Of a stretch of DNA of 30,754 bases, positions 7,602-30,632 are shown one piece after another. The stretch is from Candidatus Cloacimonadota bacterium. Lineage in GTDB: Bacteria > Cloacimonadota > Cloacimonadia > Cloacimonadales > Cloacimonadaceae. Under the pieces are notes generated by a model, which saw only the letters and a list, made by a program, of their open reading frames with translations, was not told the origin of the DNA and searched no databases. The translations under genes were made by a program, and so were the position numbers. Each line of letters starts with the position of its first letter. Position 1 is the first letter of the stretch. The stretch covers positions 1-30,754 of the forward strand of contig JALOBM010000022.1 in the NCBI GenBank assembly GCA_023228285.1. The letters run 5' to 3'.

Positions 7602-7607
7602 GCTCAC

Positions 7608-7698
7608 GCCAGGTACAGCCAATGTCTGAATGTGAATCATGTCAGGTCGGGAACGAAGCAGCATTAAGCAATCTCAGATGTGTGCGCTGCCACCTGGC
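7608..7698 (+). ncRNA. ffs: Signal recognition particle RNA, small bacterial (4.5S) type
   Basis: RNA scaffold of the bacterial SRP that binds Ffh and guides nascent membrane and secreted proteins to FtsY. The domain IV core GTCAGGTCGGGAACGAAGCAGC (7641-7662) matches the universal GTCAGGTC...GGAA...GAAGCAGC pattern. It shows a GGAA tetraloop (7650-7653) closed by TCG/CGA, where E. coli has TCC/GGA; this is a compensated change. Flanking stems also pair: TCTGA (7625-7629) with TCAGA (7674-7678), CAGC (7616-7619) with GCTG (7686-7689), and GCCAGGT (7608-7614) with ACCTGGC (7692-7698). The conserved CAGG/AGCA internal loop is present. No Alu domain, so it is the short form. The exact ends are estimated from the terminal stem. 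Confidence 0.93.
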
Positions 7699-7706
7699 TT
7701 TTTTTT
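7699..7706 (+). terminator. U-tract ending the SRP RNA
   Basis: Eight Ts directly follow the closing stem of the SRP RNA. The RNA's own terminal helix therefore acts as the terminator hairpin, as in several bacterial SRP RNA genes. Confidence 0.7.
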
Positions 7707-15110: not shown

Positions 15111-18100
15111 GTGGAGAGATTAGTTTCTAAGGCCCTGACAGAAAATCTGCGCGCTACAAAAGTAGCTGAGATCGAACTGGATGAGTCCGCGCTTTGGCTA
15201 CTTGATGTATCCCGAAACTTCTATGGAGTAAACCAACGCTTACGCAGTTTTCTGGATGAACTGTACCATCCATTTGTGAATCCCAGTATTACTCTGAGCC
15301 TGATGCGTGCCAGCGTATTAGGAGATCTTTGGTGGTTTACTTCTCAAAATGAAAATCCCCAGAGATGCATTCGGATAATCTTGGATATGTATCGCAAGGC
15401 AGAGACATTATGCCAGAAAGACGCAGAACGGATGCAGCTTTTCAGCGATTTCCTGGAATTCAGCCAAGCCATGTGTGAGCAGGATCTACCCGATATATTT
15501 AATGAGTTACTGCATATTCTGAAGAACTTTATCGAAAACAATCTGCCCCTGTTTATCCGTCTCAGTACTCAGGCTCGCAGAACTCTGATATTCTTGGGTC
15601 ATAAATGCCATGAGAAAGATGTTGTCGTATCCATGCTAAGATTGATCCTCTCGGAAAACCTCAGCTACTGGCAGCAAAACACAAACATCAGCAAGTGGTT
15701 GAAAGCGCTCAAAAATGTACCTGAGAACATAGATGAAAGCCTGTTGCCAAACGACAAATTCTATTACCATTGGCAGAGACACCTGAAACAGGCTTCAAGC
15801 CCGGAAGACTTCAAGATAGTGCCTGCCTTCACCGAAATTGCCACCTTGCATCGGGATTACATTCGCGAGTTTGCCTCTCTGAGCCACAGAGTGCAGTATA
15901 TCTTCTTTCTTTTAGGACAACCCACGATGTTGGATATGATGGACCACCTTTTGTGGGATCTGAATCGGCAATTGGCAGACATGTATCAAGAGCTCTCCAT
16001 AGATGAAGTTCACGATATGGTCGATACTGTGTTTGACACTCTGAAACACTTTACCGAAACCCATATGAGCATCGTGCTGGATTGTGTTCTGACCATCGGG
16101 AGAGCTGTGCTGAAGGGGAGTAACAGCTCATTACACAAGCATATAATCGACCACATTATAGATCTTGGCTTTACTCCTCCGGGTGAAGTACGGATATCCG
16201 GAGACTGGCAGATTGAGGTGGACAAAAACCACGTAAAACACCTCAGAATCCTGCTTGAGCTTATCGCCATCAATCCCGTGCAAAATAAAGATCTTCTGGC
16301 CTTCACCATAATCAGTATGAGCAAGCACGGAGTATTCATTTCGGATACAGACCTGTTTCAAAAAGACGTCTCTGCGTTTTTGGGCGCCAATATCAAGACC
16401 ATCTTCGTGCAATGCAAACATCTCTTGCGCATGTTTCCGGTATTCTTCAATGAAATCGGCGCAGAAGGGGAGATAAGAGACACCAGCACCAATCTGGATG
16501 AGTTGTCCCAAAGAAAAGACCGCCTGATCCACTTCCTGCGTAAACAGGTTCACACCGAAAGCAATAACACTCATATCACCTTGATAGAATGTATCTTGCG
16601 CTATTGGATTACCTTGGATCCCAGCCCTTTGGAGCACATTATCCCCGCCGATGTATGGGAGAGCATTCAGGAGATTGATGAGCGTACGTTGCACCAGAGC
16701 CGCGCAACCAAGCAGTTTTTGGCAGATAACAAACTTACGGATTCAGAATTGCTATCGCTATCGTGGCAGAAGGTGGAGATCATCTTTGCAGATATGGAAG
16801 AGGATTACTACAATAAACGTCTGAAGTTATTGTGCTATTGCCACTTCCTGTTAAAAGACAAGTACAACCTGGATCCCTACGATATCGTTAAATTCCTTTC
16901 CCGTTATAGTTTCTTTGACGGACACGAACAGAATCGCCTGCGCAGCAGCCTAACCCGCAGGGATTATGACAGTTCCATACGGCAGATGCTGACTTATATT
17001 GGAAGACTGAATGCTCAGATTCTGGATCCAAAACCCACTAGCCCTTGGGAAAACATCTATTACAAGCGGCATATCGCTGCCGGAATTCCTTCAATGTATG
17101 GCATGTATAGAGAGCCCAAATTGGAAGCCATGGGTATGGTGTTCCGCTTGGAGAATGTGATCCGGCGCCTTTTTGAACGTAGTGTGGGACAATTGAATCT
17201 GAACTATATAAACGGGAAAACCATGCGCCGCATTGTTCGCATCTTGGAAATATACGATTATGCCATGCGACAGGAGATGGTAACCAGCGATGCCTTCAGT
17301 ACAGCACTGGCTATGCTTAGCTCAGTTCAGAACATCTCGAATCTTTCCCTGGAGCAATATCTGGATATCTTCAACCTGTTGAAAGACAGTGTAAATGAAC
17401 TGGCCAATGAATACTATTACCGCTTTTACGACAACCAATTATCACGGGCCAAAGCTGATGAAGACAGTCGTACCAGAAACGAGATTTTTGCCGAAGAATT
17501 CTATCGAAACTTGCTCTCAACATCCTTTCTGGTACAGGGTTTGGACAATTTTATTACCAGGATATTGGAATCCCTCACTCAGATGCGACAGCTCTTTAGC
17601 AAAGAGAACATCGTCCAACTGATGTCCTACGATCCCGATCGTCTCTTCTTCCATCTATATACTCGAAATTCCCGCATCGAAAACCAAGTGCTTTTGGGCT
17701 CCAAAGCCTTCTTTCTGAAGCGTATGCACCAATATGAATTCCCCATTCCTCCCGGTTTTGTGATCACTACTGATCTCTTTAGAAACAGAGAAATCATCAA
17801 TACCCACCCGGATATCTCCAGCGAGTTTGACCAGTTATTGTGGGATAATTTACATAAGATGGAGCGTTATACAGGCTTGGGATTTGGTGATCCGCAAAAA
17901 CCACTGCTCTTCTCCGTGCGCTCCGGTGCTCCCATGAGTCTTCCCGGTGCGATGGATACCTTCCTGAATATCGGCCTTACGGATGAGATAACTCTGAAGC
18001 TATCTCAACGCCCCAATTACGGTTGGACAGCCTGGGATTGTTACCGGCGCCTGATCCAAAGCTGGGGCATGGCCTACGGCATCCCCCGTGATGAATTTGA

Positions 18101-19151
18101 CAACGTGATGATAAACTACAAGAAATCTTACGAGATACGGCAAAAAACACAATTCTTACCACAGCAAATGCGCGAGATGGTGGATGATTACAAAAAAGTC
18201 CTTTCCAATTACAACATATCTCTGGAGCAAGATCCTTACCGCCAGCTTTATAAATCCATATCCCACGTGCTGGATAGCTGGGACACAAAACGAGCCAGGA
18301 TGTACAGGGCAAAGCTTCACATCGCTGAAGAATGGGGCACGGCGGTAATCATCCAAAAAATGGTCTTGGGAAACATCTCACTAAATAGCGGTACCGGAGT
18401 AGTGTTCACACATGCGGATTGGCATAAAGAGCCTGGGATTTTCCTGAATGGGGATTTTACATTATGTAGCCAGGGTGAGGATGTAGTTGCAGGCTTGGTT
18501 CATACTCTGCCAATTTCCGAAGCAGAACGCTTTCACCGCAATGGCGACGTATCTTTGGAGAAAGATTTCCCTGCTTTGTATCACAGCCTATTGCGTTATG
18601 CCAGGCAACTGATCGAAGATCACAACTACCCCCATCAAGAAATTGAATTCACTTTTGAAGGAAGCTCCGAAAAGCAGCTTTACATACTGCAGACTCGTAA
18701 CCAGGTAATCCACAAAAGCCCCGAATATCAGGTGTTAGGAACCTCAGATCTGCATCTGGAAAGTCTGGGAAGCGGTATTGGCATCGGCAAAGGCGCAGTG
18801 AATGGGATTATAGTGATCAATCAAGAAGACATACACCGCTTTAAAGATCATGGAGAAGCCCTTATTTTGGTACGCCCGGATACTGTTCCGGACGATATGA
18901 TGATGCTCTTTGAGTGTCAGGGATTACTCACTTCCCGGGGCGGAGTAACTTCACATGCTGCTGTTACCGCAACCCGTCTGGGCCTGATCGGAGTAGTAAA
19001 TTGCAGAGATTTGGTGGTGAACGAAGAAAACTCCACGTGCAAGATTAAGAATGTGGAGTTTAAGGCCGGAGACATGATTACATTGGACGCCAATGGCGGA
19101 ACCATATACTTGGGCAAGCATCCCTTGCAAAGCGTACAATCTTTGGTATAG
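15111..19151 (+). CDS. PPDK-like dikinase with long unknown N-terminal region and no PEP/pyruvate domain
   Basis: A 1346-aa protein. Residues 1-860 are mostly helical with no recognised domain; the stretch YYKRHIAAGIPSMYG lies near 650. Residues about 861-1197 are a PPDK-type ATP-grasp domain: LGSKAFFLKRM, IPPGFVIT, SVRSGAPMSLPGAMDTFLN (from 935), TAWDCYRRLIQSWG, and a closing LQTRNQ. Residues about 1210-1340 are the swivelling phosphohistidine domain, GGVTSHAA with catalytic H1282. The protein then ends, so the C-terminal PEP/pyruvate barrel of PPDK and PpsA is missing. It should move a phosphate from ATP to H1282 and on to an unknown acceptor, perhaps bound by the N-terminal half. GTG start with a strong RBS; gap follows 27 bp later. 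Rifampin phosphotransferase and glucan water dikinase are distant analogies, not assignments. Confidence 0.85.
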   Translation: MERLVSKALTENLRATKVAEIELDESALWLLDVSRNFYGVNQRLRSFLDELYHPFVNPSITLSLMRASVLGDLWWFTSQNENPQRCIRIILDMYRKAETLCQKDAERMQLFSDFLEFSQAMCEQDLPDIFNELLHILKNFIENNLPLFIRLSTQARRTLIFLGHKCHEKDVVVSMLRLILSENLSYWQQNTNISKWLKALKNVPENIDESLLPNDKFYYHWQRHLKQASSPEDFKIVPAFTEIATLHRDYIREFASLSHRVQYIFFLLGQPTMLDMMDHLLWDLNRQLADMYQELSIDEVHDMVDTVFDTLKHFTETHMSIVLDCVLTIGRAVLKGSNSSLHKHIIDHIIDLGFTPPGEVRISGDWQIEVDKNHVKHLRILLELIAINPVQNKDLLAFTIISMSKHGVFISDTDLFQKDVSAFLGANIKTIFVQCKHLLRMFPVFFNEIGAEGEIRDTSTNLDELSQRKDRLIHFLRKQVHTESNNTHITLIECILRYWITLDPSPLEHIIPADVWESIQEIDERTLHQSRATKQFLADNKLTDSELLSLSWQKVEIIFADMEEDYYNKRLKLLCYCHFLLKDKYNLDPYDIVKFLSRYSFFDGHEQNRLRSSLTRRDYDSSIRQMLTYIGRLNAQILDPKPTSPWENIYYKRHIAAGIPSMYGMYREPKLEAMGMVFRLENVIRRLFERSVGQLNLNYINGKTMRRIVRILEIYDYAMRQEMVTSDAFSTALAMLSSVQNISNLSLEQYLDIFNLLKDSVNELANEYYYRFYDNQLSRAKADEDSRTRNEIFAEEFYRNLLSTSFLVQGLDNFITRILESLTQMRQLFSKENIVQLMSYDPDRLFFHLYTRNSRIENQVLLGSKAFFLKRMHQYEFPIPPGFVITTDLFRNREIINTHPDISSEFDQLLWDNLHKMERYTGLGFGDPQKPLLFSVRSGAPMSLPGAMDTFLNIGLTDEITLKLSQRPNYGWTAWDCYRRLIQSWGMAYGIPRDEFDNVMINYKKSYEIRQKTQFLPQQMREMVDDYKKVLSNYNISLEQDPYRQLYKSISHVLDSWDTKRARMYRAKLHIAEEWGTAVIIQKMVLGNISLNSGTGVVFTHADWHKEPGIFLNGDFTLCSQGEDVVAGLVHTLPISEAERFHRNGDVSLEKDFPALYHSLLRYARQLIEDHNYPHQEIEFTFEGSSEKQLYILQTRNQVIHKSPEYQVLGTSDLHLESLGSGIGIGKGAVNGIIVINQEDIHRFKDHGEALILVRPDTVPDDMMMLFECQGLLTSRGGVTSHAAVTATRLGLIGVVNCRDLVVNEENSTCKIKNVEFKAGDMITLDANGGTIYLGKHPLQSVQSLV

Positions 19152-19178: not shown

Positions 19179-20429
19179 ATGAACCTCAGCTTACGAAACA
19201 AGAACCTCTTGGGTATCAATGGCTTGGGAAGAATCGGAAAGCTCGTGCTTTGGAATCAGATTCACCTGAAGTACTTCGACGGTATTGTAGTTAATTGTGG
19301 TCGTGATGTCGGGAAGACATTGGACGACTTGATCCAAGTGATCGAAACAGACAGTACATATGGTTCCATCCACAAGTTCCTCCACGGTGTGGTAGGTGGT
19401 AAAGCGGAAATCAAGATCCTGGACAAAGACAAGCCCATCCTGGAAATCGATGGTATTCCCGTTAAAGTCCTAAGAACTGCAAGAGATCCTAAAGACATCA
19501 ATTGGTTAAACGAAGGCGTGAAGATTGTGGTGGATTGCACCGGTAACTTCCTGGATCCAACCATGGCCTCCGAAGGCGGAAAACCTTGCCTGCGCGGACA
19601 TCTGGATGCTGGAGCTTTGAAAGTGATTTGTAGTGCTCCTTTCAAGATCAAGGGCACAGCACAGACTCCTCCCGACGCAAAGACCATGATCTATGGTATC
19701 AATCACCTGGAATTCAATCCCGCGGAACACCACATTATCTCCGCTGCATCCTGCACTACTACGGGTCTCTCCCACATGATCAAACCTCTCTTGGAAAACA
19801 ACCTCACATCCAGGATCGTAACGGCTTCCATGAGCACAATCCATGCAGCTACAAACACCCAATCCATCCTGGACAGCGTACCCAAAACCGGAGCCACGGA
19901 TTTGCGCAAATCCCGCAGTGTGATCAACAATATCATCCTCTCCACTACCGGTGCAGCAAAAGCCCTGGAACTCGTGATGCCAGAGATCAAAAACATCGGA
20001 TTCATGGCAGATAGCGTACGCATACCCACAAACACGGTATCACTGATAAACCTGAACGTAACCTTCTATACACAGATGGACGACTTGGGTGAACCCTTGA
20101 TCAACCGCAAGTTAATCAACGATGTATATGCTGCTGCTGCAAAAGGCGCTCAAAAAGACCTTTTAGTGTATAGCGAACGCCAAAATGTGTCAGCAGATTT
20201 GATCGGCAGCATGGCTGCTATCACCATAGAAGCACACGAAACTCATACCCGAACCGGTTTTATCAGCTTCCCTCCCGAAGCTCTGGCTCAACAGGGACTT
20301 AAAACCGATAAACAACTTGAAATGCCGGTTACTCATGCCAAGATATTTGGTTGGTACGACAATGAGCTTGGCTCTTATGTAAACAGTCTTTCGAGGCTGA
20401 CCAACTACATAGCCGGTAAAAGCATGTAA
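19179..20429 (+). CDS. gap: Divergent glyceraldehyde-3-phosphate dehydrogenase
   Basis: NAD(P)-dependent glycolytic enzyme that oxidises and phosphorylates glyceraldehyde-3-phosphate. It has the Rossmann motif GINGLGRIG (12-20), catalytic C192 (SAASCTTTGLS) and the partner H222. It ends with the FGWYDNELGSYVNSL segment, close to the canonical WYDNEWGYSNR. It is 416 aa, about 80 longer than usual; part of the excess is N-terminal to the active Cys (192 rather than ~149), including an insert around PTMASEGGKPCLRG, and three extra residues lie between Cys and His. The usual SNASCTTNCLAP reads SAASCTTTGLSH. It shares an operon with the dikinase and has a good RBS (AAAGGAGA). Activity is likely, but cofactor preference is uncertain. 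Confidence 0.9.
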   Translation: MNLSLRNKNLLGINGLGRIGKLVLWNQIHLKYFDGIVVNCGRDVGKTLDDLIQVIETDSTYGSIHKFLHGVVGGKAEIKILDKDKPILEIDGIPVKVLRTARDPKDINWLNEGVKIVVDCTGNFLDPTMASEGGKPCLRGHLDAGALKVICSAPFKIKGTAQTPPDAKTMIYGINHLEFNPAEHHIISAASCTTTGLSHMIKPLLENNLTSRIVTASMSTIHAATNTQSILDSVPKTGATDLRKSRSVINNIILSTTGAAKALELVMPEIKNIGFMADSVRIPTNTVSLINLNVTFYTQMDDLGEPLINRKLINDVYAAAAKGAQKDLLVYSERQNVSADLIGSMAAITIEAHETHTRTGFISFPPEALAQQGLKTDKQLEMPVTHAKIFGWYDNELGSYVNSLSRLTNYIAGKSM

Positions 20430-20469: not shown

Positions 20470-20531
20470 CTGTATACCTACTATTCGACTTTATGCTTGA
20501 CCGCATACCTGCTCTCTGTAGCGTTGCAAGC

Positions 20532-20957
20532 ATGAAACAAGTATTGATAATCTGTACCGGAAATTCATGCCGCAGTATCATGGCGGAAGCTTTGATAAAC
20601 CATTATCTAAAGGATGAATGGCAGGCATTTTCCGCCGGTACCCATCCATCCTACGTGCATCCTTATGCGATCATGGCATTGGAGGAACTGGGCATTGATG
20701 TTCATGGCTTACGCAGCAAATCCATCTCGGAGTTTTGGGATTCTGAAGACTTGGATCTCGTAATCACTGTATGTGACAGTGCAAAAAGAAACTGCCCCGT
20801 CTTTCTAAAACCCATTCCTCGCATTCATCTCAGTCTGGAAGATCCATTAAGATACGGCGTGTTGGATTTTGATGAAGCTATACTAGGCTTTCGAAAAGTA
20901 CGCACTGAAATCGTGAACAAACTGCTCCCCCTGTTACAGAATTATGAGTCTCGATAA
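20532..20957 (+). CDS. arsC: Thioredoxin-type arsenate reductase / low-molecular-weight phosphatase
   Basis: A 141-aa cytosolic protein with the LMW-phosphatase fold. The P-loop is CTGNSCRS with nucleophile C8 and C13. A redox pair, C81 and C88 (VCDSAKRNCP), is spaced exactly as in the thioredoxin-dependent arsenate reductase of S. aureus (Cys82/Cys89), and D104 (LEDP) is the acid. This favours ArsC over a tyrosine phosphatase, which lacks the redox cysteines. I chose ATG 20532 because the motif normally begins within 10 residues of the start; an in-frame ATG at 20493 would add 13 unusual residues. No arsenite pump or ArsR is nearby. It overlaps the next gene by 14 nt. Confidence 0.88.
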   Translation: MKQVLIICTGNSCRSIMAEALINHYLKDEWQAFSAGTHPSYVHPYAIMALEELGIDVHGLRSKSISEFWDSEDLDLVITVCDSAKRNCPVFLKPIPRIHLSLEDPLRYGVLDFDEAILGFRKVRTEIVNKLLPLLQNYESR

Positions 20958-21645: not shown

Positions 21646-22422
21646 TTATGTCGGTCTCTTCGGTTCCACATATTCGTCCATGCGCTGATAACGCCAGCGC
21701 AGAAAGATACGATCCAGTAATGCCACTATGCCAAACAGCAGCATCGAGAGCAGTATTATCACAAAGATCACCGCGAAGACATGAGCCGTATGGAAGGACT
21801 TTGTTGCCCGGGTCATATAGATGCCCAATCCGGCTTTTCCCCCCAGCCATTCGCCTATCACGGCTCCCATCACGCTGTATGTGGCAGCCAGTTTCAAACC
21901 GGTAAAAAACCCAGGAAGACCAGCGGGAAGCTTCAGATATCGAAAGCACTTGTAGCCCGTTGCCCCCAAAGCCTTCATCAGTCGAAGTTGATCTACGGAC
22001 ACTTGTTGAAATCCCTCAAATAATCCCAAGACAATTGGGAAAAAACACACTAATATCACGGTAAAAATCTTTGCTGATACGCCATATCCGAACCAGATTA
22101 TTATGATCGGTGCCACAGCAATGATCGGCACAGTCTGAGAAACCAGCAAATATGGATAGATAATCTGCTTGAACAACTTAGATGCATCCATTAAAATCGC
22201 TGTAGCAGATCCCAAGACAATGCTGATGAGCAAGCCTGTTACTGCCTCAAGCAGCGTCGGCTTCAAATGATGCCAGATCAAATCTGAATTATGAACGAAA
22301 ACGTCCAGTACTGCCTTAGGTCCGGGTACTATCCAAAAAGCTATCTTTGCAGTACTGCTGACGAACTGCCATAATATCAACAGCAAGAGCAGGAATCCCA
22401 AAGGGAGAAGGCTCTTCTTCAC
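21646..22422 (-). CDS. ABC transporter permease, SsuC/TauC/ThiX type
   Basis: A 258-aa inner-membrane permease with about six helices. It carries the cytoplasmic EAA loop that docks to the ATPase (LRLMKALGATGYKCFRYLKLP, about 146-166) and the VPIIAVAPIIIIWFG segment typical of the family that imports nitrate, sulfonates, taurine or thiamin precursors. The start overlaps the end of murB by 4 nt, so it is the last gene of the minus-strand operon. Neither the ATPase nor the solute-binding protein is in the window, so the substrate cannot be inferred. Confidence 0.9.
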   Translation of the reverse strand: MKKSLLPLGFLLLLLILWQFVSSTAKIAFWIVPGPKAVLDVFVHNSDLIWHHLKPTLLEAVTGLLISIVLGSATAILMDASKLFKQIIYPYLLVSQTVPIIAVAPIIIIWFGYGVSAKIFTVILVCFFPIVLGLFEGFQQVSVDQLRLMKALGATGYKCFRYLKLPAGLPGFFTGLKLAATYSVMGAVIGEWLGGKAGLGIYMTRATKSFHTAHVFAVIFVIILLSMLLFGIVALLDRIFLRWRYQRMDEYVEPKRPT

Positions 22423-23345
22423 ATCTCCCCTACTTGCCTGATCTCCATTTCCAATCGCACTTTAAATCGTTCATACACTGTACGCTGCACGTGTTGGATC
22501 AAATCTCTTACATCCCTGGCAGTAGCTCCGCCCAGATTTACAATGAAGCCGCAGTGTTTATTGGATACCTGTGCGCCGCCAATTCTGAATCCGCGCAGTC
22601 CGCAATCGTCGACCAGCTTACCGGTAAAATGGCCTTCAGGGCGTTTGAACACAGAACCCGCACTGGGCATATCCATCGGTTGTTTCTCGTTTCTCATCGC
22701 ATCCCATTTATCCATTGTTGCCCGAATCTCTTCCGGATCGGATACAATCAGCTGAAATACCGAACTAAGGTGGATCAGACCTCTATCCTGCAAGGCACTA
22801 TGCCTATAGCTAAAAGCATGAGCTTCCTTGTTCAGATGAAGGATGGGATTGCTGCTTTGCAGGCTTTCCAAGCTGGGACTGAGGCATTTGCTGCAATACA
22901 GTACATCTTTGATCTCTCCTTCGTAAGCTCCGGCGTTCATAAATACTGCCCCTCCCACCGATCCCGGTATCCCGCAGGCAAACTCCAAGCCCGACAGCCC
23001 TTCCTTTTGGCAAAAGTCACAGAGTTCTTTCAGACTCCGCCCAGCGAATGCAGACACATAGTTCTCGTCACGTGTTATCTTATTGAAGCCTTCCATGCTT
23101 ATCACCAGGCCCCGTATACCTCTATCCCCTATCAATAAATTGCTGCCCTTACCCAGGATGAACCATGGAACTTCATGCTGGAGGGCATATACCAAAAGGG
23201 ATATCAGGTCACGTTGTGTGTCCGGCTTTGCCAAGACATCTGCCGGGCCTCCAATTTTGAAGCTGTTATAAGGCGCCAAGGGCTCATCAAACATCAGTTT
23301 TCCCTGTTCTGCCAGATGTTGGAACTGTTCTTTGATCTGTTTCAT
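22419..23345 (-). CDS. murB: UDP-N-acetylenolpyruvoylglucosamine reductase MurB
   Basis: FAD-dependent enzyme that reduces UDP-GlcNAc-enolpyruvate to UDP-MurNAc with NADPH in peptidoglycan synthesis. Motifs: YNSFKIGGPAD (26-36) and GKGSNLL (66-72) for FAD, ACGIPGSVGGAVFMNAGAYE (123-142), FSYRHS (178-183), the proton donor S231 (SAGSVFKRP) and E299 near the C-terminus. Its 308 aa and the YRxS motif fit the type II MurB group. It overlaps its neighbours on both sides by 4 nt (ATGA). It is unusual to find it away from other mur genes. Confidence 0.95.
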   Translation of the reverse strand: MKQIKEQFQHLAEQGKLMFDEPLAPYNSFKIGGPADVLAKPDTQRDLISLLVYALQHEVPWFILGKGSNLLIGDRGIRGLVISMEGFNKITRDENYVSAFAGRSLKELCDFCQKEGLSGLEFACGIPGSVGGAVFMNAGAYEGEIKDVLYCSKCLSPSLESLQSSNPILHLNKEAHAFSYRHSALQDRGLIHLSSVFQLIVSDPEEIRATMDKWDAMRNEKQPMDMPSAGSVFKRPEGHFTGKLVDDCGLRGFRIGGAQVSNKHCGFIVNLGGATARDVRDLIQHVQRTVYERFKVRLEMEIRQVGEM

Positions 23346-26164
23346 ATTTTGCTAAAGAACCTCGTGATTTCATTAATGAGTTGCAATTCATCTTTCAATT
23401 CCAGATGTTTGCCGGGCAGTATCTCCTTGAAATATGTGCCATAGCGTTTGCGGCTTACTCTGCTATCCAGGATCAAGACAATACCTCTATCGCTTTTGGA
23501 GCGGATCAGTCGGCCGAAACCTTGCCGGATTCTCAGTAAAGCGTTTGGCAACATATAATGCATAAAGGAGTCCTTGTCTTCGCGTTCAAGCTTGTCGATA
23601 TATGCCTCTACTAAAGGCTCTGAAGGTACTTGGAAGGGAATCTTGTATAGAATCAACAGCGACAAGGAATCTCCCTGCACATCCACTCCTTCCCAAAATG
23701 AAGAAGTGCCCAAAAGAACCGCATTGTTCGCCTTTTTAAACTCCTCCAGGATGCTGCTGCGGCTGCCTCCTTTACCCTGCACAAAGAGCGGCCTTTGCCC
23801 ATAATACATGTCGTCAGCCACTTCATTGTACACAATATCCAAATCCCTGTAGGCAGTGAACAAGGCCATTGTGCCCACATCCACAGTCTGAAAGATCTGT
23901 TTCAGACAAGACAGTGCCTGAGGTTGAAAATATTTATCTTTAGGCTCCGGCAGGAAGCTGGAGATCAGCAATTTGGACTGCTTGTCATAATCAAAAGGAG
24001 AATCCACAAACAGTTCCACTACTTTCTTGTCCTCCAGCAAGTTCAAACCGGATTGGTTGAGGAAATAGCGGAATGATCCTCGAATGCCCAGAGTGGCTGA
24101 AGTGAAGACGATGGATGGCACTTGGGAATGCAATAGCTGTTTCAGAAAAACATTTACTTCTATGGGAGCATAGTTCAGAACTGCCGCAGGAACATTACGA
24201 TCCGGGCGCGGATTGTTCTCTATCCACAAGGCAAAATTATCCAGATCCGGCTCTGTGATGTATAGCAGAACTGCTTCCATCTCACTAAGCCGCATCACAA
24301 AAGCCGAGATTGCCTCCATGTGTCGGTCGTAGCCAGCAACCTGCTTGCTTTCCAGAGAGTTTATCACGTTTTCCATGGCCTTGGCTGCTTTCAGTATCTC
24401 TTTGAAAAGCAGCAAAAACTTGCCCAGCAAAGCAAATAGATCGGTAGCCTCTGCCTTGGATTTGATGCGCAGTTTGTTGTAAGAATCTGCCGCAGCACAC
24501 ATTGCCGAAGCCAAGTTGAATATGTCCATCGCTGGCTTGCGCGCTTCTTCGATCACATCTTCCAAACGCTTAGCCACAGCCAGACACTGATCCTTCTTTG
24601 CTTCGGGTAGCGGACTCTTGGCCAGTGCTTTGTCCCATCCGGCCAGAAAGCTGCTGCTATGAAGCCGTGAGCTGCCCGCAATCTGGTTCATCAGAATGAT
24701 CACATCTGCGTAAGATATTGTGGATCCCAGATGCTTGGAAGCTGAAGAAATCAGGTTGTGCGCTTCATCAATCACCAGATAGTGATATTCCCCCAAGCTG
24801 CTATTCTCCATTCGCATATCTGCCAATAGCAGCGCATGATTAGCTACTACCACAGAGGCATTATCGATCTCTCGACGCAAGTTCATGATGTAGCAATGGT
24901 GGTAATGCTGGCACTTACGATTCCCGCATAAATATCTGTCTGAGCATATTTTACGCCAAGTAATACTGAAGCGTCCCCGGTCAAAAGAGGAGTTTTCCGA
25001 GATGTCTCCGGTTACGGTCTGCAGCTTCCAAATGTATAGGTACAATAACGCGTGTGCATCCCAAGCACTTAGTTCCCTGCTACTCTGGTTTATTAGTTCT
25101 TCCCATCGCCTTTCACAAACGTAATTCTCCCGCCCTTTTATTAAAACCGCTTTGAAGGCTACAGGTAATATCTTCGCCAATTGCGGTAGATCCTTGTAGA
25201 AAAGCTGTTCCTGCAGGTTCTTGGTATTTGTGGATACCACAACCTTTGCTTTGCTGCGCTGTGCAAACTCCAGGGCTGGTACCAGATAGGCGAATGATTT
25301 TCCCACTCCTGTACCAGCTTCCACCACAAGATGATCCTCGTTTGTGAAAGCTTCGGATACCGCTTTGGCCATCTGAACCTGACCCTGGCGAAACTCAAAA
25401 TTGGGAAACTTCTGAGCAAATATGCCATCTTCAGAAAACACAGCTTCGATCTGAGGATCAACAGTTGCAGGCAGGGCATTGTCAATCACATTGTAAAAAG
25501 GACTCTTGATACCGGAAACAGGAGGAGCTGAGATAGCAGATTGGCGTTGAAAGCGGACTATATCCTCAAAGAAGCTGGTGCTCTGGATCTGTGCCATTTT
25601 AGCAAAGGATTGAAGCCGCGCGTTCACAATCATACTGAAGTTTTGGCAGGCGTAATCTCCCAGAGCCATCAGCAATTCTCCGGTTGCTTTGGCATCAGCG
25701 TCGGCACGGTGAGCGTTTTCCAACTCTATACCAAAATGCTTTGCCATCGTTCCTAACTTGTGATTTGTGCTCAAGGGCAGATAGGTTCTGCTCAGCTCTG
25801 CTGTATCCCATGTACCATTATCTAGCGGAAAGTCTGCCAATTTGCCATAGTTATAGTTGATGAAGCCCAGATCGAAGGATACATTGTGCCCCACCACGAT
25901 GTCGGAACCAACAAAGCTCTTCAATCGAGGCAATACTTCAGCAATATCTGGTGCACTGTCCACATCCTCATTAGTAATATGAGTAAGGAACATAATGAAC
26001 TTCGGCAAAGCCTGACTTGGCCTTACAAATGTGTCGAATACTTCCACAGCTTTGCCTTGACGAAAGCGGATAGCAGCTATTTGGATGATCTCGTCTTTGC
26101 GCTCCGATAGTCCGGTAGTCTCGATATCCAGGGCAGTAAAATTCAGCGTCTCAGAAAACTTCAT
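23342..26164 (-). CDS. dinG: DinG-family helicase with N-terminal DnaQ-like exonuclease domain
   Basis: A 940-aa fusion. Residues 1-170 are a DEDDh 3'-5' exonuclease: ALDIETTGL (D13, E15), GHNVSFD (D98) and HRADADA (H152, D157). Residues about 250-940 are an XPD/DinG-type superfamily 2 helicase: Walker A EAGTGVGKS (282-290), Fe-S cysteines C350, C413, C418 and C424 with the same Cx4Cx5C spacing as E. coli DinG, DEAH (466-469), FTSATLG, and QGFGRLIRS. This layout is known from Firmicutes DinG. With all motifs intact, it probably unwinds DNA in repair or replication. No LexA-like box is seen at its start, which overlaps the regulator's stop by 4 nt. Confidence 0.95.
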   Translation of the reverse strand: MKFSETLNFTALDIETTGLSERKDEIIQIAAIRFRQGKAVEVFDTFVRPSQALPKFIMFLTHITNEDVDSAPDIAEVLPRLKSFVGSDIVVGHNVSFDLGFINYNYGKLADFPLDNGTWDTAELSRTYLPLSTNHKLGTMAKHFGIELENAHRADADAKATGELLMALGDYACQNFSMIVNARLQSFAKMAQIQSTSFFEDIVRFQRQSAISAPPVSGIKSPFYNVIDNALPATVDPQIEAVFSEDGIFAQKFPNFEFRQGQVQMAKAVSEAFTNEDHLVVEAGTGVGKSFAYLVPALEFAQRSKAKVVVSTNTKNLQEQLFYKDLPQLAKILPVAFKAVLIKGRENYVCERRWEELINQSSRELSAWDAHALLYLYIWKLQTVTGDISENSSFDRGRFSITWRKICSDRYLCGNRKCQHYHHCYIMNLRREIDNASVVVANHALLLADMRMENSSLGEYHYLVIDEAHNLISSASKHLGSTISYADVIILMNQIAGSSRLHSSSFLAGWDKALAKSPLPEAKKDQCLAVAKRLEDVIEEARKPAMDIFNLASAMCAAADSYNKLRIKSKAEATDLFALLGKFLLLFKEILKAAKAMENVINSLESKQVAGYDRHMEAISAFVMRLSEMEAVLLYITEPDLDNFALWIENNPRPDRNVPAAVLNYAPIEVNVFLKQLLHSQVPSIVFTSATLGIRGSFRYFLNQSGLNLLEDKKVVELFVDSPFDYDKQSKLLISSFLPEPKDKYFQPQALSCLKQIFQTVDVGTMALFTAYRDLDIVYNEVADDMYYGQRPLFVQGKGGSRSSILEEFKKANNAVLLGTSSFWEGVDVQGDSLSLLILYKIPFQVPSEPLVEAYIDKLEREDKDSFMHYMLPNALLRIRQGFGRLIRSKSDRGIVLILDSRVSRKRYGTYFKEILPGKHLELKDELQLINEITRFFSKI

Positions 26165-29100
26165 CCCTCGTCCCTGAATAGATTGTAGCGCTGCAATTTT
26201 TTAATGAGACCCTGGCGCGAAAGCCCCAACTCTCTGGCTGCCTGGGTTTGGTTCCAGTCATACTTTTCCATGCATGCAGAGATCATTTTCCGTTCAAGTT
26301 CTTCCACAGCTTCCTTCAGATTTTGCTTTGTGCTCAAGAGGTCAATTGTGCGGCTGTGCTCAAAGTGACGATGCACTTCCTCCGAGAAATCCGAGGCATG
26401 AATGAAAGTATTGTCTTCCACCAAAGTTACTGCTCGCTCAATTTCATTCTCCAATTGGCGCACATTTCCCGGAAATTCATAGTTCTCCAAGGTCTTCATG
26501 GCTTCATCTGTAAAGCCCGATACATTTTTGCCAATGCGTTTGTTGTATTTATCCAAAAAGTGGATCGCAAGAAGCGGGACGTCTCCAGGACGATTTTTTA
26601 GGGGTGGTACTTGAATGCGGATCACATTAAGCCGATAGTATAGATCCAAACGAAAATCACCTTTATTCACCTTATCCAAGAGCGGAACATTGGTGGCGCA
26701 GACCACGCGAACATTCACTTTCTCCGTCTTGGTGGCGCCAACCCGTTTCACCTCACCTTCCTGCAGGAATCGCAGCAGTTTGGCTTGAGTGGATTGACTG
26801 ATGTCGGCAATCTCATCCAGGAAGAAAGTACCGCCGTCGGCTATTTCAAAGAGACCCTTCTTATCGTATGCTGCTCCGGTGAAACTACCTTTTACGTGAC
26901 CAAACAGTTCACTTTCCAGCAGGGTTTCAGGCAGAGCTCCGCAATACTGAGCCACAAATGCTTTCCCAGCGCGATTGCTGCCATAATGCAAGGCTCTGGC
27001 GATCAATTCCTTTCCAGTTCCGCTATCTCCTTCTAAAAGCACTGTGGTAGGGGTGTCCTTCACCTTTTCTATGATCTCGAAAATCTTCATCATCTCCGGA
27101 CTTTTACCAATTATATTGGCATATAACCTGCCTTCGTGAAGCTGTTCCCGAATGGTAGCATGTGTCTTTTCCAGATTTGCGTTGCGGATGTTCTCGATAA
27201 TTACGATTATCTGATTTGATAACGCATTCAAGAGGTTGATAATGCGTTCGCTGAAGTAGCGTGAACCGCTTTTGCAGAAGAGCAATACCGCACCCAGGGT
27301 ATCCTTGCGGATGGATAATGGCAACAGCAATATATTGTTGTATGATGCCGCAAAATGAGGTTGCTTGTAGTTTAGTACTTTGTTCTCCTGATGTACTTCC
27401 GCACATAGATACATGAAGCTATCATAATCCTTGTCTTCCGCCGAGAAATTCCTGAATATCTTATATTCCCAAGCATCTGGTAGATTTGCTGTACTGTGCA
27501 AACATAAAATACCGCCGTCCGCCTCCGAAATCTCTATCAAGCTAGTAAGAGATTGCTCGATAATCAGATCCAGATCTGTAATCGTATTCAGCTTCTGCGT
27601 GATCTCATAAAATTGATTGAGCAGGTTCTCTTCAAACTTCACTTCTTGCATCTGCGAGGAATATTCGCGGGAAATCCTTTGCATCAGTATGTCATTCTGT
27701 TCCAAGAGCTTTATGGAGCCATAATGCTGAATCACTTTCTTGTTGTTTTTCAATATCTGCAGAGCCTGTTCCCATTCTTCCAGATCCAACAGCACTTCGG
27801 CCAATTCGTAATTTGCCAAAGACAGCTCGTAATGACTATTTGTGGCAACAAAGCGTTTGAGTGCTTCTTCCAGATGCGTTTTGGCGTTTTCCGGATTCTT
27901 GCGTTCCAAGAGCGCACGCAGATAGTATGTCCAGCCGATTTCGAAGTCATTCTGTTGTTCTGTAGCAAGACGGAAAGCTTCATTCAGAAAATAATCCGCA
28001 CTATCGGCATTATGAGTCATAATGAAGTAATAGGCCTGGTTTTGGCAGCCTTCGATAATCTTGTCCCTGGCACCAAGTGCTTTGAAGAAATCGAAACTCT
28101 CCATCAGGTAGCGGTATGCATCTTTGAACTTGTGCAGTTTTGTGAGCACCGAGCCCAGATTGCCATAGAGCTCTGCTTTGATGTATTCATCGCTCACTGA
28201 GGGTAGCATCTCCAAGCCCTTGAAATATAGGTCATAAGCCAGGTTCAACTCACTACTCTTTTCATATACTTCACCCAGGTTGTTGAAGGAGCGCAGCAAC
28301 CCCTCGCCAAAGCTGTTTTCTTCGCTTAGCTTGATGGCTTTTTCATAATAGCTGATGGAGCCCTTCCAATCTCCCTTCTTGAAACTGAGTGCCCCCAGAT
28401 TGTTCAGAGACGCCACAGTGTTTCGGAAGAAATTGAATTCTATAGCTGTTTCCAGGGATTTCCTCAGCGCATCTTCAGCTCTGTCGAAATCACCGTGGTC
28501 CATCATTGTAACCCCAATGTTGTTGTATATATTGGTAATATTGTATGGTTCCGAGAGCAGACGCTGTATCTTCAGAGCTTCTTCCAGATAGTATAAAGAC
28601 CGGGCAGCATCACCCTTATCGTCCATCAATCCGCCCAGGTTATTGAAGCACACAGAAATACCGTTCAGATTGTAGTAGTCCTTTTCCAGGGCTAAGCTTT
28701 TTAGAAAGTATGTCTCACTCTGCTCCCAATCCCCCTGAAACATGTACAACACACCCAGATTGTTGTAGATTGCCGCCAGTCCGGCATGATCATCGGCAAG
28801 GCCGTACATAGTTTCAGACTCCTTGAATGCTTCTTCAGCTTGATCCCATTCATTGATGTAATAGTGTATTTTCCCCTTGATTTTCTTAGCTTCCGCCTGA
28901 ATCAGATAGCGCTGGTGCTGGTCTTCGATGTTGCCCATGGATTGCAGCACCGTATCAAGAGTCTCAAAAGCCTCGTTGAACTCTTCGCTTTCAGTAAGGA
29001 TATCTCCTTTCAGCAGTTGGATTCTGGATTTCCAGTAGGCATCAATCGTAGCAGGAGAGTATTTTTTTATGATCTCCAGGGCAAAGCTATTTGAATTCAC

Positions 29101-30438
29101 GGCAAAAAGCGTATTAGACAGGTTGTACACAATCTCTTCCGCCGGCAAGTTGTTTTCCGTGCATATATGAAGGCATTGACGATAGTAGTCTATTGCCTTA
29201 TCCTTCTGACTGATGCTCGAATAGCAGGCTGCCAGCTTTACCGTATTTTGCATCTTTTCCTGGGCATTCTTGCTAATCGAAAGAAGATAATCGTAGATGC
29301 TGATGCAGCTTTCTCCGTCTGAAATCAGCATAAACAGCTGCAACATCTCATTGAATAGAGCCGCATTGTAAGCTGCATAACGGATGTTCAAGCGCAAGAG
29401 CACCTGCGGCAACACATCGTTTTTCTTCAGATACGTGCTGATCTTCTTCAGCAAAGCGGGGGTAGAATCCGGATTCTCTTCCAGCCACAATCCAAAAGCA
29501 CGTTTCTTCTGAACCACGCAAGTGTCGTTCACGATTGCCAACAAACCACGCTCCACCAAAACCTTGCTATCGGTCTTTATTCCCTTACGTCCCAATGCTT
29601 CGGAGATATCGCTCAATTTCATCCCATCCAGCGTATATGCAGTTATCAAAAGTTCCAGCTGGCTCTCACTAAGATACTGCAAGCTTTGATAGTACACTTC
29701 GTGAGGATCGTAGGTCTTTTCCAAATACAGACTCAGGTCAAAGCCACCCTTGGGTTTTTGTCCTCTCATCTCTGAAAAGATCCGTTCCAGGATCATAAGG
29801 TTACCACCGGATATTTTATGCAGAATCTCTCCTTCGGAGATATAGCTCAATCCCGCTTCGGGGAAAAGGTTGCTCAGGAGCTTTTGCAGATCCTCTGCTC
29901 CCAAACTGGGCAAGTTCTCTTCTATTGAGAAGGGGAACAGCCGCTTTTGCGAAAGAGCAACTATCTGAATCCCCGTATCTGCCGCATATTGAACCAGATA
30001 CTGTAGGAAATCCCTGCTATAGGCATCCAATACATCACTATCATCCACAATCAGCACAAGAGGTTTTAGGAGGTCCCGCTTGAGCAATTGCTCGGTAAAG
30101 TAGTAGAAGAAGTCGTATTTCTTGCCGGTCAGGTATTTCGAATAATGCTCTTCAAAGAGCTCCATCTGAGCATGCTCATCCAAACCTGTCAATATACCTA
30201 CCAGCTCTGTAAAATGATTGAAATACAGGGGATGAGGGCTAAAGTACACAATCTGCGCATACTTCTCTTGCAAAGCGGAGATAATTGGCGTAATGAGGTA
30301 GGACTTTCCAGAACCGGACTTGCCGGTAATCTCCATCAGGTGACTGTGACTGCTGTCTTGAATTTGTTCCAGCACGCGCGACAAATTAAAGCGCTCGGAT
30401 ACGAATTCATGCATCTGTTGATATAGCTTTTCAGGCAT
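26161..30438 (-). CDS. Giant sigma-54-dependent regulator: AAA/STAND NTPase + TPR + GAF + sigma-54 AAA+ + Fis HTH
   Basis: A 1425-aa multidomain regulator. Residues 1-330: a NTPase with Walker A GKSGSGKS (39-46) and Walker B VLIVDDSD (128-135), likely ending in a winged helix. About 340-920: a long TPR array with repeated NNLG units (for example YNNLGVLYMFQGDW, FNNLGGLMDDKGD). About 935-1095: a GAF-like sensor domain. About 1110-1340: a sigma-54 AAA+ motor with Walker A GDSGTGK (1137-1143), the sigma-54 contact loop GSFTGA (1184-1189, canonical GAFTGA) and Walker B FFLDE (to 1209). C-terminus: a Fis-type HTH (1396-1418). It should activate RpoN promoters in response to a ligand or partner bound by the TPR/GAF part. 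There is no receiver domain. AGGAG lies 8 nt upstream. It heads the four-gene operon. Confidence 0.92.
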   Translation of the reverse strand: MPEKLYQQMHEFVSERFNLSRVLEQIQDSSHSHLMEITGKSGSGKSYLITPIISALQEKYAQIVYFSPHPLYFNHFTELVGILTGLDEHAQMELFEEHYSKYLTGKKYDFFYYFTEQLLKRDLLKPLVLIVDDSDVLDAYSRDFLQYLVQYAADTGIQIVALSQKRLFPFSIEENLPSLGAEDLQKLLSNLFPEAGLSYISEGEILHKISGGNLMILERIFSEMRGQKPKGGFDLSLYLEKTYDPHEVYYQSLQYLSESQLELLITAYTLDGMKLSDISEALGRKGIKTDSKVLVERGLLAIVNDTCVVQKKRAFGLWLEENPDSTPALLKKISTYLKKNDVLPQVLLRLNIRYAAYNAALFNEMLQLFMLISDGESCISIYDYLLSISKNAQEKMQNTVKLAACYSSISQKDKAIDYYRQCLHICTENNLPAEEIVYNLSNTLFAVNSNSFALEIIKKYSPATIDAYWKSRIQLLKGDILTESEEFNEAFETLDTVLQSMGNIEDQHQRYLIQAEAKKIKGKIHYYINEWDQAEEAFKESETMYGLADDHAGLAAIYNNLGVLYMFQGDWEQSETYFLKSLALEKDYYNLNGISVCFNNLGGLMDDKGDAARSLYYLEEALKIQRLLSEPYNITNIYNNIGVTMMDHGDFDRAEDALRKSLETAIEFNFFRNTVASLNNLGALSFKKGDWKGSISYYEKAIKLSEENSFGEGLLRSFNNLGEVYEKSSELNLAYDLYFKGLEMLPSVSDEYIKAELYGNLGSVLTKLHKFKDAYRYLMESFDFFKALGARDKIIEGCQNQAYYFIMTHNADSADYFLNEAFRLATEQQNDFEIGWTYYLRALLERKNPENAKTHLEEALKRFVATNSHYELSLANYELAEVLLDLEEWEQALQILKNNKKVIQHYGSIKLLEQNDILMQRISREYSSQMQEVKFEENLLNQFYEITQKLNTITDLDLIIEQSLTSLIEISEADGGILCLHSTANLPDAWEYKIFRNFSAEDKDYDSFMYLCAEVHQENKVLNYKQPHFAASYNNILLLPLSIRKDTLGAVLLFCKSGSRYFSERIINLLNALSNQIIVIIENIRNANLEKTHATIREQLHEGRLYANIIGKSPEMMKIFEIIEKVKDTPTTVLLEGDSGTGKELIARALHYGSNRAGKAFVAQYCGALPETLLESELFGHVKGSFTGAAYDKKGLFEIADGGTFFLDEIADISQSTQAKLLRFLQEGEVKRVGATKTEKVNVRVVCATNVPLLDKVNKGDFRLDLYYRLNVIRIQVPPLKNRPGDVPLLAIHFLDKYNKRIGKNVSGFTDEAMKTLENYEFPGNVRQLENEIERAVTLVEDNTFIHASDFSEEVHRHFEHSRTIDLLSTKQNLKEAVEELERKMISACMEKYDWNQTQAARELGLSRQGLIKKLQRYNLFRDEG

Positions 30439-30465: not shown

Positions 30466-30501
30466 ACAGTACAACTGTAAAAAGAATTGACATACTGTCA
30501 A
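30466..30501 (-). promoter_or_regulatory. Promoter and double-dyad operator of the regulator operon
   Basis: On the minus strand, -35 TTGACA (30501-30496), 16-bp spacer, -10 TACAGT (30479-30474). The -35 lies in the dyad TTGACA-TAC-TGTCAA (30487-30501, plus strand) and the -10 in a second dyad ACAGT-ACA-ACTGT (30466-30478). Both have 3-bp centres, a layout suited to binding by a dimeric regulator, perhaps autoregulation. Confidence 0.5.
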
Positions 30502-30540: not shown

Positions 30541-30632
30541 TAAGAAGTGACACCTGATAAGAAGTGACACCTGAAATGTCAAATCGTGACACCCATAAGA
30601 AGTGACACCTGAAATGTCAAATCGTGACACCC
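30541..30632. repeat. Tandem 38-bp direct repeat, 2.4 copies
   Basis: Two exact 38-bp copies lie at 30557-30594 and 30595-30632, each starting ATAAGAAGTGACACCTGA and ending CGTGACACCC. A partial copy (TAAGAAGTGACACCTG) precedes them at 30541-30556. Each unit has a GTGACAC word at both ends and a TGTCA in the middle. There are no spacers, so it is not a CRISPR array. Confidence 0.95.

Follow-up and report, generated by a model that had tools for sequence, protein, structure and literature searches.

In a 30,754-nucleotide stretch of DNA from a Candidatus Cloacimonadota bacterium (contig JALOBM010000022.1 of assembly GCA_023228285.1; hereafter the window), we have analysed a gene on the minus strand, at 26161..30438, whose product we call the regulator. 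The protein falls into two halves. Residues ~1–925 form a sensor, in which a predicted nucleotide-binding oligomerisation domain (NOD) of the type seen in signal transduction ATPases with numerous domains (STAND) is followed by an arm and an array of tetratricopeptide repeats (TPR), while residues ~937–1420 form a NifA-type activator, with a GAF domain, a sigma-54 AAA+ domain and a Fis-type helix-turn-helix (HTH). We think it probable that the regulator is a one-chain transcription activator in which this sensor, through its STAND switch, works the NifA-type activator to which it is fused.

A single gene with two halves

The gene is one open reading frame (ORF), 30438..26161, with an ATG start, 1425 codons and no internal stop. 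It coincides exactly with the coordinates of the original prediction, which had given no strand, and the worry raised there that a frameshift might hide two separate genes is answered by the intact frame together with full-length matches in other genomes. The regulator is a real, intact gene, far beyond what chance would yield. Pfam, for which 25 of 35 families were listed, places AAA_16 at residues 19–150 (E 2e-12), TPR families across ~400–921 (TPR_12 in four stretches, TPR_MalT at 644–921), Sigma54_activat at 1109–1276 (E 4e-69), AAA_lid_14 at 1282–1360 and HTH_8 at 1378–1418 (E 5.6e-15), bearing out the TPR array, sigma-54 AAA+ domain and Fis HTH that had been read from the sequence. The predicted positions of Walker A (GKSGSGKS, residues 39–46) and Walker B (VLIVDDSD, 128–135) likewise proved exact.

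The arm and TPR superhelix (residues 327–925; 27664..29460, on the minus strand like every feature of the regulator) are defined by the Pfam TPR families, by hairpins in a structural model and by structural matches to TPR proteins. In this model of residues 1–1095 (predicted local distance difference test score 88.7, predicted template modelling score 0.70), helical hairpins run up to residue 925 and are followed by a connecting helix, an alpha/beta GAF-like domain at 956–1062 (27253..27573) and a long helix that heads towards the AAA+ domain. Pfam called no GAF domain in the window copy and GAF_2 in 26 of 35 orthologues; these calls, the model and an alignment of residues 937–1420 with NifA support the GAF-like domain that had been proposed. 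When the same model was used for a structure search, the matches listed were TPR proteins only, among them LGN/Pins, Rap phosphatases and NprR. As these bind peptides or partner proteins, the matches suggest, by analogy, a peptide or protein as the regulator's ligand.

A probable STAND-type nucleotide switch

STAND ATPases were defined here, following the accessible part of a published account (PMC6468293), by nucleotide-binding, helical and winged-helix domains, usually with an arm and a repeat sensor, and by an exchange of ADP for ATP that a ligand sets off and that leads to multimers. In the regulator we see a P-loop domain, helical and winged-helix domains, and an arm followed by repeats. 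The nucleotide-binding domain (residues 33–175; 29914..30342) is identified by AAA_16, by the AlphaFold model and by matches to MalT, PH0952 and Apaf-1. The model also provides the helices of the helical domain (residues 181–226; 29761..29898), which lies within the range aligned with MalT and PH0952, and the secondary structure of the winged-helix domain (residues 245–309; 29512..29706), including a two-strand wing at 300–309.

Conservation was measured in 177 sequences drawn from 188 non-contained sequences (>1300 amino acids, plus the window's own), a set that includes close relatives, so that its counts are not independent. Within Walker A (30301..30324), all but one of the 173 orthologues that have a residue at position 45 carry K45 (172 of 173), and another 4 have a gap there; within Walker B (30034..30057), 149 of 177 carry Asp132 and 22 have Tyr in its place, and the acidic pair DD is present in the window copy and in 135 of the 177.

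The best structural matches to the N-terminus are MalT and PH0952. Alignments with MalT, PH0952 and Apaf-1 run through residue 400, past the winged helix, and many other AAA+ matches end near residue 243, before it. The alignment with 6mfv also reaches residue 400, covering the arm, after which come the TPR hairpins up to 925. The AAA/STAND fold claimed at the outset, for which a structure comparison had been proposed as the check, therefore holds: as judged from the modelled fold, the N-terminus of the regulator is a STAND NOD with an arm.

A sigma-54 output

The sigma-54 AAA+ domain and its lid occupy residues 1109–1360 (26359..27114), with the sigma-54 contact loop GSFTGA at 1184–1189 (26872..26889), and the Fis-type HTH identified by HTH_8 follows at 1378–1418 (26185..26307). 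K1143, E1144, T1187, G1188, A1189, D1208, R1263 and R1269 are identical in all 177 sequences, F1186 is found in 176 and E1209 in 175, and position 1138 within Walker A varies. At loop position 1185 there is S in 169 sequences and A in 8; the validated activator LevR is listed with S at the second position of GAFTGA in the accessible part of a survey of sigma-54 activators (PMC3162934). Walker A and B motifs, R-fingers, a GAFTGA-type loop and a Fis-type HTH, by which enhancer-binding proteins (EBPs) are recognised, can all be seen in the regulator.

The presence of rpoN had been named as a check on the prediction, and the gene is there: PF04552 gives one match, at C1:17759-18238, in the genome that carries the window (G000; 2.06 Mb, 97% complete). 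That genome has five strong sigma-54 activator matches. Since the other four (L001, L003, L004 and L005) begin, by eye, with receiver-like sequence, the regulator appears to be the only one-component sigma-54 activator seen in G000. Two of the four have altered sigma-54 loops (GSFTSA in L005, GAFTDA in L003) and may act differently.

Distribution in the Cloacimonadota

Presence was counted in 59 genomes (G000 and 58 relatives) from the matches listed, weaker ones being excluded. A full-length, one-frame match to the regulator was found in 45 genomes, including its own, and fragments or split matches in 7; the copy in G035 has one in-frame TAA. The named organisms among the best 120 of 1817 relatives are all from Cloacimonadota lineages, to which we take Syntrophosphaera and Tenebribacter to belong, and a scan of genome contigs gave 173 relatives, from which 78 loci were kept, all but two with Cloacimonadota-lineage names. 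We rejected these two (L151, Bacteroidales; L200, Armatimonadota) as evidence for occurrence outside the phylum: both lie on 4-kb contigs and are probably misbinned. Among the matches listed for 395 genomes of the phylum of G059, which holds L151, with two candidates scored per genome, the N-terminal part was found in G059 only. None of 2547 plasmid records with a match reached a query coverage of 80%, and a scan of viral contigs for six exact regulator peptides found none, which excludes close relatives only. Judged by these sequence matches, the regulator is a core Cloacimonadota gene.

A conserved palindrome upstream and the search for targets

Upstream of the regulator lies a conserved palindrome, TGTCAATTCTTTTTACA (TGT-N11-ACA; 30476..30492), which is a candidate operator. 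It is accompanied by TTGACA (30496..30501), the likely -35 box of the regulator's own promoter, and by a candidate -10 box, TACAGT (30474-30479), recognised by eye. Of 65 distinct upstream regions, 55 contain TGT[AC]A-N7-T[TG]ACA no further than 200 bp from the gene (shuffled controls: mean 0.125, maximum 2; Markov controls: mean 0.09, maximum 1) and 61 contain TTGACA, against 3.5 expected; the regions come from related species and are not independent. The palindrome begins 7–14 bp from the start of TTGACA, between the presumed -35 and -10 boxes, in 29 regions, including the window; it stands 28–36 bp upstream of TTGACA in 24, has neither placement in 2 and is missing from 10. It resembles the NifA site, given as TGT-N10-ACA in published papers, and because the C-terminal half of the regulator is also NifA-like, we prefer to think that the regulator's own HTH probably binds the palindrome, for autoregulation.

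Just upstream of the regulator, at 30541-30609 on the minus strand of the window, GGTGTCACTTCTTA is repeated exactly, in three copies (when two mismatches are allowed, 0.2 are expected). Similar runs precede several orthologues, for example L034, L036, L040 and L041. The repeats lie where the assembly contig starts and may mark one end of a mobile element.

Target promoters were sought with several patterns. G000 contains 10 sites that match TGGCAYNNNNNTTGCW (reversed control, 3), and ten relatives together contain 79 (reversed control, 26); when 30 of these 79 were inspected, 23 lay inside an ORF by simple picking and 7 outside. TGTMA-N7-TTACA gave 15 rows at 9 places in G000 (reversed control, 4), of which one is the regulator's own site, six are in ORFs, and two stand before V-ATPase-E-like and Der-like genes (names by eye), the site before the Der-like gene also overlapping a small opposite ORF. 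With a stricter operator pattern, ten other genomes yielded 10 sites (reversed control, 4), three before regulator orthologues, four in ORFs and three at or between ORF edges, with no recognised target among them.

Sigma-54-like promoters do occur, for instance before pilin-like genes, and none was linked to the regulator. One pilin-like gene (L072:207-695, minus strand) has a strong sigma-54 promoter match, TGGCACGACTCTTGCA, at 762-777, and similar matches precede homologues in a few other Cloacimonadota genomes: among 29 upstream regions of pilin-like homologues (L261 probably has a wrong start, and L259 gave none), a promoter-like match was present in 6, one of them weak. As TGT-N11-ACA was found in none of these six regions and in two of the others, the pilin-like gene was rejected as a target of the regulator.

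The downstream partner and other genes of the window

The regulator's stop shares 4 bases with the start of a gene for an ExoDinG-like exonuclease-helicase (23342..26164, minus strand), which contains RNase_T and Helicase_C_2 and whose closest NCBIfam models are DinG models, below their cut-offs. Of 72 distinct loci whose sequence extends far enough, 69 have an ExoDinG-like gene on the same strand, at most 400 bp downstream; the exceptions are L058, L189 and L206. An ExoDinG-like match without the regulator was found in G050 and G055, and in G054 both genes are present, apart from each other. In five genomes (G003, G024, G027, G029 and G034) neither gene was found, through joint loss or an assembly gap; we did not take this joint absence as independent evidence, since adjacent genes vanish together. 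According to the accessible part of a review of DinG-like proteins (PMC11981726), ExoDinG is not regulated by LexA and its role is still not fully elucidated, and the linkage to the regulator is a lead on that role. The gene run continues with murB (22419..23345, minus strand; an NCBIfam equivalog above cut-off) and ends with a gene for an ABC transporter permease (21646..22422, minus strand; BPD_transp_1), and in the window's own family the murB cluster comes after the regulator in 16 of 19 parsed loci, as does the permease cluster in 16 of the 19.

Elsewhere in the window, on the plus strand, we observed a gene for the bacterial small signal recognition particle RNA (7607-7702; Rfam, 61.7 bits) and a 951-residue zinc carboxypeptidase (7779-10634) with carboxypeptidase-regulatory repeats, a MAM-like domain and a C-terminal secretion sorting domain. 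A 1346-residue protein (15111-19151) ends in PPDK_N and a PEP-utilizer mobile domain; for its first 900 residues, there was no Pfam match at E 0.01 among the families listed. Beside a GAPDH-like gene (19179-20429) lies one (20493-20957) whose product is related, with scores below cut-offs, to the thioredoxin-type arsenate reductase ArsC.

Mechanism and alternatives

In the mechanism that we favour, the STAND module would at rest be closed around ADP, with the chains kept apart. A ligand, peptide or protein, would bind the TPR superhelix, the GAF domain tuning the response, and the STAND module would open to its ATP form. Its multimerisation would then gather the AAA+ domains into a ring that could touch sigma-54 via GSFTGA and open -24/-12 promoters, and at the regulator's own sigma-70-like promoter the HTH would be bound to TGT-N11-ACA for autoregulation. 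Here we infer the coupling of the switch, the ligand, the binding of the HTH to the palindrome and the target genes. It is conceivable, and we propose it tentatively, that NOD multimerisation templates the sigma-54 ring on the same chain, in a core Cloacimonadota regulator coupled to the ExoDinG-like helicase, and that the same logic is followed in other phyla by a broader class that has no name yet, whether or not a kinase is present. If the favoured mechanism is true, a second ATPase motor, one that opens promoters, can be placed under the control of the oligomerisation switch known from MalT, Apaf-1 and plant nucleotide-binding leucine-rich repeat receptors, and sigma-54 transcription would report directly on the activation of a STAND protein. 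For a phylum with little genetics, concrete handles are provided by the set of orthologues, by the conserved operator and by the ExoDinG-like gene that so steadily accompanies the regulator.

A number of observations weigh against this interpretation. An hmmsearch of the PDB with a profile of residues 1–400 listed 32 entries with E values of at most 1, no STAND protein among them, and for this reason the STAND assignment rests on the fold; some archaeal ORC chains also align through residues 327–328, but with root-mean-square deviations of 9–10. At the site of the GxP-like motif that is usual in STAND proteins the regulator has GNL, and its switching might differ from that of MalT. Asp132 is lost in 28 of the 177 orthologues, 25 of them within one 32-member clade that also contains all 22 Tyr132 cases, and a Fitch count over the whole tree gives 4 changes of Asp132; a reading from 37 sequences, in which the NTPase had decayed widely, was too strong in the light of this larger count and tree, and we discarded it. 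K45 is retained in nearly all members of that clade. Judging from these residues, nucleotide binding seems kept and hydrolysis perhaps lost in some members. Where two ATPase motors had originally been proposed, the sigma-54 motor stands, its catalytic residues being near-invariant; the first domain, given that 28 of the 177 sequences have another residue for its Walker B Asp, has the look of a switch gated by nucleotide and is not a proven second motor. The palindrome may belong to another protein. The matches listed contain no regulator in 7 of the 59 genomes (the five lacking both genes, together with G050 and G055), one of which scored 99% complete. Finally, a search of all 59 for the operator combined with TGG-N9-TGC (TGTAA half-site only, spacing 40–100 bp; not exhaustive) found 20 places in 18 genomes, with the promoter element always inside an ORF of at least 60 amino acids; the reversed control gave 0 in 59 genomes, at face value favouring the 20, and its gapped reversal was perhaps not searched properly.

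Some of these data would suit a protein in which GAF is the true sensor and the NOD-TPR part a nucleotide-bound, non-switching scaffold that docks a partner or locates the regulator, an arrangement that we regard as unlikely, though the most serious of the rivals. The NOD is the least conserved part (mean column identity 43% over residues 1–400 vs 58% over 1–1095), the Asp132 replacements are joined by changes of Ser46 in 6 orthologues, the TPR array is as well conserved as expected of a docking surface, and the NifA-like unit formed by the C-terminal half is complete. A scaffold explains less readily why the P-loop lysine has been kept so widely, even in the clade that has lost Asp132, and why the model has the whole set of NOD, winged helix and arm. 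That the sole conserved operator found sits on the regulator's own promoter, just after TTGACA in the 29 regions described, and that composite searches found no sigma-54 target would also be expected if the protein acted chiefly in a local role, repressing or autoregulating the operon that it forms with the ExoDinG-like gene, in the manner of EBPs that have lost sigma-54 activation. This we consider improbable in view of the very strong conservation of the G[SA]FTGA loop, the Walker motifs and the R-finger region, and of the serine at loop position 2 that is listed for the validated LevR in the part of the survey available (PMC3162934). PADLOC, in turn, matches the NTPase weakly to mads_8 (E 3.4e-7) and the EBP part strongly to the CARF-AAA-HTH models of RtcR, as might a defence STAND protein that senses phages and has a transcription output only incidentally. 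The RtcR matches are confined to residues 1087–1420, the shared EBP part; a gene that is present once per genome, and in many families is steadily followed by the same partner, is unlike a mobile defence island, and the viral-contig scan, within its reach of close relatives, was empty, so that we attach very little probability to a role in defence.

Comparison with known systems

An activator worked by a STAND switch, as we favour it, has its nearest structural counterparts in MalT of E. coli and the TPR-STAND protein PH0952, in which nucleotide-binding, helical and winged-helix domains and an arm are arranged as in the regulator and likewise lead into a TPR superhelix. The regulator differs from MalT in its output, a GAF-sigma54 AAA+-HTH unit; MalT ends in another DNA-binding domain and works with sigma-70. 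NifA shares the GAF, sigma-54 AAA+ and Fis HTH domains, aligning with residues 937–1420 at ~35% identity, and lacks the 930-residue NOD-arm-TPR part; against the NifA equivalog TIGR01817 the regulator scores 364.2 bits, below the curated cut-off of 528.85.

The original prediction had described the design as undescribed. In its favour, among the papers listed in searches of the open-access literature we found no study of a STAND-TPR-sigma54 activator, which is weak evidence as subscription papers are mostly outside it, and no paper linking Cloacimonadota with sigma-54. The accessible main text of the sigma-54 activator survey, which counts ~136 Pfam architectures, does not contain 'TPR' or 'tetratrico' (PMC3162934). 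Against it, the same domain order is already present in databases behind a kinase.

Sister activators provide a first comparison: of six loci fetched, a motif filter (>600 amino acids) picked L210, L211, L213 and L214, and two gave none. All four share TPR and a sigma-54 output with the regulator, and the motif GxxxxGK[ST] is found in none of them. L210 clearly has GAF as well, and so does L211, though with a score below the Pfam cut-off. L210 (1460-5782, plus strand) and L211 (4607-8770, minus strand) encode Cloacimonadota sigma-54 activators with an N-terminal Ser/Thr kinase and TPR, the kinase taking the place of a detectable STAND NTPase, and HTH_8 was not called; L213 and L214 have TPR only before the output (TPR-sigma54-HTH).

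Among the best 120 of 617 matches in a search with the kinase form are large proteins, some of which carry names from Myxococcota, Sandaracinaceae and Deltaproteobacteria. In all five PknK-like proteins examined, AAA_16, TPR, GAF, the sigma-54 domain and HTH_8 stand in the same order as in the regulator, from which they differ by an N-terminal Ser/Thr kinase and a length of 1554–2037 residues; in the regulator, no kinase was called among the families listed, and there is no space for one ahead of the NOD, which begins by residue 33. Across 78 PknK-like proteins, Walker A lies in residues 251–700 in 45, an exact G[AS]FTGA is present in 65, and 39 have both; with phmmer at E 1e-3, the NOD segment of the regulator finds 1 of the 78, the TPR segment 44 and the EBP segment all 78. 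The claim of a unique design is therefore too strong, and the mechanism remains plausible. Because kinase-AAA_16-TPR-GAF-sigma54-HTH proteins share its domain order, the general design is wider than the regulator's family, with the regulator as its kinase-less, phylum-core version.

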